Positions 37,692 through 39,617 of a DNA stretch of 64,000 nucleotides are shown here, piece after piece. Every line of letters begins with the position of its first letter. Positions within the stretch are counted from its first letter, which is position 1. The notes beneath the pieces are model-generated. The model searched no databases, was not told the origin of the DNA, and saw only the letters and a list, made by a program, of their open reading frames with translations. A program made the translations under genes and the position numbers. Source of the DNA: Halopiger aswanensis (GTDB lineage: Archaea > Halobacteriota > Halobacteria > Halobacteriales > Natrialbaceae); contig NZ_RAPO01000003.1 of the NCBI RefSeq assembly GCF_003610195.1, positions 372,001 to 436,000 on the forward strand, read 5' to 3'.

Positions 37692-37741
37692 TTAGGCCCA
37701 CCTAAAATCCAGTAGACTTATTTACCTTTAGGTTGGCCTAA
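37692..37741 (+). promoter_or_regulatory. Promoter bracketed by two TTAGG-N4-CCTAA boxes
   Basis: TTAGG-CCCA-CCTAA (37692-37705) and TTAGG-TTGG-CCTAA (37728-37741) are perfect inverted repeats 36 bp apart. The TATA box CTTATTTA (37717-37724) is exactly between them, so the second box would cover the space between TATA and the start of RNA. The half sites match the DtxR/IdeR family operator (TTAGGTTAG-type), which controls iron or manganese genes. It serves the two-gene operon that follows, after a leader of about 110 nt. Confidence 0.7.
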
Positions 37742-37854
37742 ACCATGAGCAAGCCGTGATCCGCGAGCGAACCCGTCCTCGCAGGAGGCGATTTCCGCGC
37801 GGATCGCGACGAGCGGACCGAAATCCGGTTCGAACGCCGTAGGAACGAGCAACC

Positions 37855-38808
37855 ATGGTCGGAACGACACTACGAGAAATCCGCGAGCGAATCGAACAGT
37901 TAGCGAGCGACGGCGGCGAGTACTACATCGTCTGTGGCCGATCCGGCGAGCGGCCAGTTCCCGTCGCCGGCAAGCGATTTCCGTCGCGCGAGGCTGCGGT
38001 CGACGCCGTAAAAGCAACCGAGCAGTACCGGGCTGCACTGCGCCGCTACGACCCACAGCTGCCGTTTTACGATCCCGTCGTCTGCCAGGAGGGACAGGGT
38101 TCGGCTGCCGATCCGGCGCCGCCCGCACCGAGCGCCGCCGAACCGGTCGCCGGCCGCTCGAGGTCGACGGACGCGACCGGCGGCGGACGACAGCCGCTGA
38201 TCGGCTTCTGCCACGACGTCTCGGGCGCCGTCTTCGAGGCGCTCTCGGCGCGCGATCACGCTGCCGCCGAGAGCGCGATCATGGACACGTACCTCGCCGC
38301 CGCGGAGGCCGTGACCGACCCGGACGCCCTCTGTCTGGTGCTGCTCGAGAGCATGGCGACGGAGCTGGAACGCCATCTCACGCCGAGCGAACGCGTCGGG
38401 GTGCTCGAGGCGGCAGCACGGGCCCTGTCACCGGTGCAGGCGGCCGTGGCCGAGGACCCCGTCGAAGCGAGCCTCGAGCACCTGCACTCGCTTTCGCTGA
38501 TCTCCGAGTACGGAGTCGTTCGCCGGCCGCTCGACGCCGACGGCGGCAACGCGTGGGTCGTCTACCTGCGCGGCTACGCGATGGAAAGCAGCGAGCGTCG
38601 GTTTCCGACGCTGCCGATCGGGATCGACCTGCTCCGTCGGACGGTCGACGAGGAAGGGAGTGTGAAAGCCGGAGCGGATGCCGGCCGCTGTGCCCCCCTC
38701 GGCGTCAGTGAGGCGAGTGCGCTCGGCGACGACGACTGGCGACTCGTGTTGACGACGGACGCGGCGGCGGACGGGCTAATCTGCGTCGAGGAGGGATCCG
38801 AATCGTGA
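37855..38808 (+). CDS. Conserved haloarchaeal protein of unknown function (DUF7551-like)
   Basis: 317 residues. The first 70 form a small alpha/beta module (VGTTLREIRERIEQLASDGG, YYIVCGRSGERPVPVAGKRF, FPSREAAVDAVKATEQYRAAL) that also occurs in other haloarchaeal proteins. A Pro/Ala linker (about 83-105) follows, then a helical domain with FCHDVSGAVFEALS and a C-terminal part. No membrane segments or signal. I recall a DUF7551 label but am not sure. Its stop overlaps the next start (GTGA), and the promoter carries two metal-type boxes. Confidence 0.75.
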   Translation: MVGTTLREIRERIEQLASDGGEYYIVCGRSGERPVPVAGKRFPSREAAVDAVKATEQYRAALRRYDPQLPFYDPVVCQEGQGSAADPAPPAPSAAEPVAGRSRSTDATGGGRQPLIGFCHDVSGAVFEALSARDHAAAESAIMDTYLAAAEAVTDPDALCLVLLESMATELERHLTPSERVGVLEAAARALSPVQAAVAEDPVEASLEHLHSLSLISEYGVVRRPLDADGGNAWVVYLRGYAMESSERRFPTLPIGIDLLRRTVDEEGSVKAGADAGRCAPLGVSEASALGDDDWRLVLTTDAAADGLICVEEGSES

Positions 38809-39617
38809 CCGGGGACGCGACCGAGACGGCATCTGCGACGGACGTCCACCGTGCGCTCGAGTGCGTCACCGAACAGCGAGCGTCGGTTGCGGATCGAATC
38901 GACGCGTTCGAATCGTTCGCCGCCTGCGTCCGTGATCTGCCGGCCGGCCCCTCCGCCACGACCGCCGGCCCGGTCGCACAGGCGACGCCGACGGTGATGA
39001 CGTCCCGGGCCGCCGGTGCGGGGCCGGCGACGCCCGATCCCTGCGCCGTCGTCCGACGAACGTTCCTCGAGACGATCGTCCCGCATACCACCATCGAGAT
39101 CGACGGCGAGGAATCGGTCGTACGAGCGCTCGCGGCGGAATTCTCGCGCGACATCGCCGTTGCGCTGACGACGAACTCGACCTGGACTGCGGAGTTGAAA
39201 ACCGCCGTCGTCGAGGCGGCGACGACGCGACGCTTCGAGGCGGAACGGCTGCAGGCGGCGCTCGAGACCGAAGCCGAACGCCTCGAGACGCTCGTCGACG
39301 ACCTCGATTCGATCGTCGCGTGGCTTCGGTCGACGGCCGCGGAATCGCTGCACCAGTGCGGATTCGACGAGTTGCGGGCGAAACACGACCGACTCGAGGA
39401 ATTCTGCGATCGGCTAGGGACGGTGCTCGAGGAGCGACAGGAGCGGTTACAGGACCCGGTTCGGGACGCCGGCGACGTGCCGTATCGAACGCTCGTGGAA
39501 TCGGTGTACGCGTCGTTCGATTCGCGGTATCCGGTGCTCGCGACGCTCACGCGCCTGTATCGGATCTGCCGGGAGTGCCAGCGAACGGTTCGCGACCACC
39601 TAGTCCGGCGGGCGTAA
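38805..39617 (+). CDS. Conserved coiled-coil protein (DUF7260-like)
   Basis: 270 residues, GTG start at 38805 sharing 4 nt with the stop of the previous gene, so translation is coupled. The centre (about 130-225) is a long helical stretch (ATTRRFEAERLQAALETEAE, LDDLDSIVAWLRSTA, FCDRLGTVLEERQERLQ), probably coiled coil. The C terminus is helical with RLYRICRECQRTVRDHL. The style fits haloarchaeal DUF7260. No function is known. The pair forms the operon behind the TTAGG-N4-CCTAA promoter. Confidence 0.75.
   Translation: MTGDATETASATDVHRALECVTEQRASVADRIDAFESFAACVRDLPAGPSATTAGPVAQATPTVMTSRAAGAGPATPDPCAVVRRTFLETIVPHTTIEIDGEESVVRALAAEFSRDIAVALTTNSTWTAELKTAVVEAATTRRFEAERLQAALETEAERLETLVDDLDSIVAWLRSTAAESLHQCGFDELRAKHDRLEEFCDRLGTVLEERQERLQDPVRDAGDVPYRTLVESVYASFDSRYPVLATLTRLYRICRECQRTVRDHLVRRA

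Follow-up and report, generated by a model that had tools for sequence, protein, structure and literature searches.

Idr, SirR and TroR are the regulators of the DtxR-family iron regulon in haloarchaea. In Actinobacteria, the operators of DtxR and IdeR are palindromes with TTAGG half sites and serve iron metabolism. Papers on that topic include PMC524172 and PMC8464063. According to PMC11349517, every fhu operon of Haloferax volcanii is preceded by a regulon signal credited to Leyn and Rodionov (2015). PMC11218638 lists an NAD(P)/FAD oxidoreductase among the iron-uptake genes that are repressed together. Here we analyse a two-gene operon in a 64-kb stretch of Halopiger aswanensis DNA (the window), which shares with the haloarchaeal regulon the palindromic TTAGG-N4-CCTAA box at its promoter. 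The same box is shared by siderophore ABC transporter genes and one DtxR gene and lies near Dps, whereas this operon contains no gene for a transporter, a storage protein or a regulator. Its promoter resembles the Actinobacterial operators in the TTAGG half site, the palindromic form and the connection to iron metabolism, but differs from them in that two separate palindromes, spaced 34–36 bp, stand on either side of an archaeal TATA element. On this sequence evidence we consider it highly probable that the operon belongs, as a conserved component, to the DtxR-family iron regulon of haloarchaea.

Promoter and genes of the operon

The features of the locus, in window coordinates, are the following:

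37692–37705, no strand: box 1, TTAGGCCCACCTAA, an exact palindrome 5' of the TATA-like element
37718–37724, plus strand: TATA-like element TTATTTA, read directly from the sequence, between the two boxes
37728–37741, no strand: box 2, TTAGGTTGGCCTAA, an exact palindrome between the TATA-like element and the inferred transcription start
37742–37854, plus strand: 113-nt leader, beginning ACC-ATG AGC AAG CCG TGA
37855–38808, plus strand: gene 1, 317 aa, with the Pfam domains DUF7552 (residues 5–79) and DUF7551 (residues 115–312)
38805–39617, plus strand: gene 2, 270 aa, DUF7260, helical, with a GTG start that overlaps the TGA stop of gene 1

The sequence-only reading had described two perfect DtxR-type palindromes 36 bp apart around a TATA box, and this description is accurate: both boxes are exact TTAGG-N4-CCTAA, they start 36 bp apart at 37692 and 37728, and TTATTTA lies between them. 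Box 1 also agrees with TTAGG-Y-NN-R-CCTAA, the pattern of the related loci. No other exact TTAGG-N4-CCTAA occurs in the window. When two mismatches are allowed, the window holds five matches against 4.33 expected by chance, so the window alone would not decide whether the boxes have a meaning.

Transcription should start at about 37743–37747, with box 1 just 5' of the TATA/BRE region, because leaderless relatives show box 2 directly before the ATG. As gene 1 begins 113 nt past box 2, the transcript would then carry a leader. An Rfam scan of this leader gave no match and no terminator-like site was found; a single sigma-70-like match was dismissed as irrelevant to archaea. A four-codon frame (ATG AGC AAG CCG TGA, 37745–37759) begins 4 nt past box 2 and sits about where transcription should start. 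It was rejected as a leader peptide because the sister species does not share its stop codon.

Two coupled genes with no known function had been proposed, and the coupling is borne out by the overlap of the gene 2 GTG with the gene 1 TGA; the domain content of gene 1 had to be corrected to two Pfam domains, DUF7552 and DUF7551. Residues C27, C119, H120, F127, E128, Y146, C160, Y241 and P254 are among the invariant positions of the gene 1 protein, and the gene 2 protein has a conserved C-terminal CxxCQRxVRxHL stretch. The predicted models reach a pLDDT of 85 for gene 1 and 88 for gene 2. By sequence search, neither family has a meaningful relative in the PDB, and Foldseek against the PDB returned nothing at E <= 0.001 for either model. 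Structural comparison of the gene 2 model recovered common helical arrangements only (best Z 8.3). NCBIfam gave no match for gene 1, and an SMC-related coiled-coil match of gene 2 was discarded as far under the cut-off. None of the papers covered by a literature search names DUF7551, DUF7552 or DUF7260.

The box at orthologues and across haloarchaeal genomes

Genome-wide, exact TTAGG-N4-CCTAA occurs at 33 sites against 5 for a reversed control pattern, and the surroundings of all 33 sites were examined. About half of the boxed promoters precede Peripla_BP_2 or FecCD genes, which belong to the siderophore/iron ABC transporter class, and at several of these the box lies 18–26 nt ahead of the start codon. 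Further boxed genes encode an SBP_bac_6 transporter, an ABC ATPase and a ScdA/hemerythrin protein, and some boxes adjoin Dps ferritins. The genome encodes DtxR-family regulators (four strong PF01325 matches, E <= 6e-13), one of which has its own box pair upstream, at C2:1210140 and 1210176. A scan of proteins encoded next to boxes recognised no manganese transporter.

Conservation of the boxes upstream of orthologues, which the sequence-only reading had set as the test, is seen for single and for paired boxes alike. Orthologue loci were collected by protein and not by box. Among the 117 distinct orthologues of gene 1 sampled from 115 genomes, 75 show an exact box in the 400 bp before the gene, compared with 0 of 120 loci for the exact reversed control. 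Boxed orthologues make up 46 of 57 in the organism's own family and 29 of 60 in other families, so that about half of the sampled orthologues outside the family have no exact box within this distance. The 80 loci from named genomes (1.24 Mb) contain 142 boxes against none for the control. Gene 1 was called in 78 of them: it has its own box within 320 bp upstream in 50, stands behind a boxed gene within a run of genes on one strand in a further 16, and has a box elsewhere in the locus in 9, leaving three with no box in the locus (L218, L228 and L242). By class of gene, boxes precede 49 of 79 gene 1 copies, 31 of 54 genes for siderophore-binding proteins and 52 of 940 other genes (Fisher p 1.6e-34, ignoring shared ancestry); the share for gene 1 is thus close to that for the binding proteins and above that for other genes. 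The orthologue loci share ancestry, and box counts are therefore not independent events. In some genomes (L147, L159 and L161), a box also stands before a gene for a protein with DUF7552 alone, with DUF7260 encoded next.

Pairs spaced 34–36 bp occur five times in this genome and are present in 147 of 242 haloarchaeal genomes, with a control count of 0 in each genome listed. All 59 distinct pairs in the related loci are spaced 34, 35 or 36 bp, in a search that permitted spacings of 29–44, and the spacer holds a TATA-like string in 57 of them under a permissive pattern. Among the four central bases of the box in these loci, Y is favoured at the first place and R at the fourth. The promoters of relatives take two forms: in one, box 2 stands directly before the ATG of a leaderless gene 1, and in the other a leader of about 20–360 nt intervenes, which in Natrinema often ends with GGAGG before the ATG. 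In some species, a short frame of about 30–55 codons starts immediately past the box and precedes gene 1 (L220, 7769–7933; L119, L134, L140 and L156), which gives the impression of a small extra gene placed at the head of the operon.

Several other boxed genes came to light. Four boxes lie within 11 kb in L017 (G000:C1:1389389-1400355), where they precede genes for a GMC oxidoreductase, a glycosyltransferase, an SBP_bac_6 transporter and an RGP-like protein. The gene for a halocyanin-type copper protein (DUF5059 + Copper-bind, L013:3397-4911) is preceded, at a distance of 46 nt from its start, by an iron box (G000:C1, 520850), which suggests iron sparing through a copper protein. A DUF7331 protein of 54 aa is encoded near Dps (L011:3552-3716; G000:C1, box at 169028), and proteins of 54–56 aa like it are found in L187, L192, L211 and L239. 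An iron box lies some 23 nt ahead of their start and Dps is nearby; they often end near '(V/I)FxExxNxDGWxxxD' and look like a small iron-regulated protein.

Gene neighbourhood and the DUF7551 model

In the named loci, 80 in all, the genes no more than five places from gene 1 include DUF7260 in 30, siderophore-binding Peripla_BP_2 proteins in 24, an ABC ATPase in 17, a thioredoxin-reductase-like FAD oxidoreductase in 14, a DtxR-family regulator in 11 and Dps in 9. The fullest cluster is that of Natronomonas sp. CBA1123 (L239), which runs from an ABC ATPase through three binding proteins, a 57-aa gene, gene 1 and gene 2 to DtxR, DUF7331, a 97-aa gene and Dps. Gene 1 comes directly after a boxed binding-protein gene in Haloferax mucosum and H. 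larsenii (L194 and L208). Within the window, no iron gene adjoins the operon.

In the DUF7551 model, a part of four helices leads into helix-strand-strand-helix-strand-strand, which is the order of H-NOX domains (HNOB, PF07700): alpha(4)-alphaF-beta1-beta2-alphaG-beta3-beta4. Most top rows of a VIA-align comparison are H-NOX chains, the best with Z 7.2 over 161 residues at an rmsd of 4.2 A, a Z that unrelated folds can also reach. The model has one N-terminal helix fewer than H-NOX. Haloarchaeal H-NOX has a proximal His and YxSxR, whereas neither a conserved proximal heme His in helix F nor YxSxR is present among the invariant columns of DUF7551. No HNOB sequence-profile match was found in gene 1 at E <= 0.1, and kinship to H-NOX by sequence was rejected after hhalign against a haloarchaeal H-NOX alignment gave a probability of 0.3%. 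The likeness of the predicted model is thus a weak one and serves as a lead only. It is distinctly unlikely, though conceivable, that DUF7551 would be a heme-free H-NOX/Bet3/V4R-like branch which, with DUF7552 and DUF7260 and by way of the invariant Cys/His, senses or handles siderophore iron or redox and feeds the DtxR regulon. Two HNOB domains are encoded elsewhere in the same genome (G000:C3:621352-621834 and G000:C3:693435-693908), and the former (L243) has both the heme His and YxSxR.

Probable iron control, its alternatives and a possible role of the operon

From the regulon content, we take the letters TTAGG-N4-CCTAA to be those of the Leyn and Rodionov 2015 signal. The box matches the known haloarchaeal DtxR-family iron-regulon signal, an identification made because the fhu operons carry the regulon signal (PMC11349517) and because siderophore genes surround the sites. 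The 'undescribed metal-responsive system' of the sequence-only reading was too strong a term, given that the box and the paired-box promoter are a general haloarchaeal signal, with the same box before fhu/FecCD-type transporters and a DtxR gene and beside Dps in this genome. Metal control itself, as proposed there, is backed by the regulon content and appears well supported, with iron the likely metal.

What follows is an inference as to which regulator binds, in which direction it controls the operon and what the products do biochemically. When iron is sufficient, metal-loaded dimers of a DtxR-family protein would occupy both boxes around the TATA element and shut out both TBP/TFB and RNA polymerase. 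Once iron runs short, the dimers would leave and both genes would be expressed, gene 2 through translational coupling to gene 1, whose helical partner it may be. The operon stands behind the switch of haloarchaeal iron-uptake genes, and relatives retain it behind a switch of this type, so that it very probably takes part in the response to iron shortage. From the neighbouring genes we tentatively suggest that the products could act in the cytosol on ferric-siderophore iron, receiving, reducing or releasing the iron that co-regulated ABC transporters deliver.

Other readings differ in what they make of the boxes and of the proteins. Were the boxes chance or unrelated palindromes and the operon outside metal control, a two-mismatch count in the window equal to chance would be expected, as is seen; we regard this as extremely improbable, since exact palindromes are far above the control, are conserved upstream of orthologues and have a fixed spacing. 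Control by manganese or a metal other than iron is very unlikely. The DtxR family does include MntR, and the boxed DtxR gene of the genome scores 51 bits against MntR models, far under their cut-off of 350; however, the regulon consists of siderophore-type ABC transporters, Dps and ScdA/hemerythrin, and the scanned proteins next to boxes included no recognised manganese transporter.

The remaining alternative concerns the function of the products: instead of handling iron, gene 1 together with gene 2 would tune the DtxR-family regulator, an H-NOX-like domain sensing redox state or a ligand and gene 2 relaying the signal. A DtxR gene lies no more than five genes away in 11 loci, often in the order gene1-gene2-DtxR or gene1-DtxR, and this is consistent with such a role, as are the H-NOX-like element order of the DUF7551 model (best Z 7.2) and the invariance of C27, C119, H120 and C160. 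Gene 1 nevertheless lies beside transporters or alone without DtxR in more loci, the window among them, and the fold match is weak with no match in sequence, so we hold this role to be rather unlikely. We favour membership of the iron regulon, with handling of siderophore iron in the cytosol as the tentative function.

As far as we have checked, the new part is the placing of DUF7552/DUF7551 and DUF7260 as conserved iron-regulon members, the regulatory system itself being known. Two uncharacterised protein families (three counting domains) thereby gain a physiological setting that can be tested, and deletion is practical in Haloferax volcanii, as it holds both families (control matches). The genes occur in many haloarchaeal genera behind an iron-type promoter, sometimes in a cluster with siderophore transporters, an FAD oxidoreductase, DtxR and Dps, and DUF7552/DUF7551 and DUF7260 are candidates for a part in the release of iron from imported siderophores in haloarchaea.
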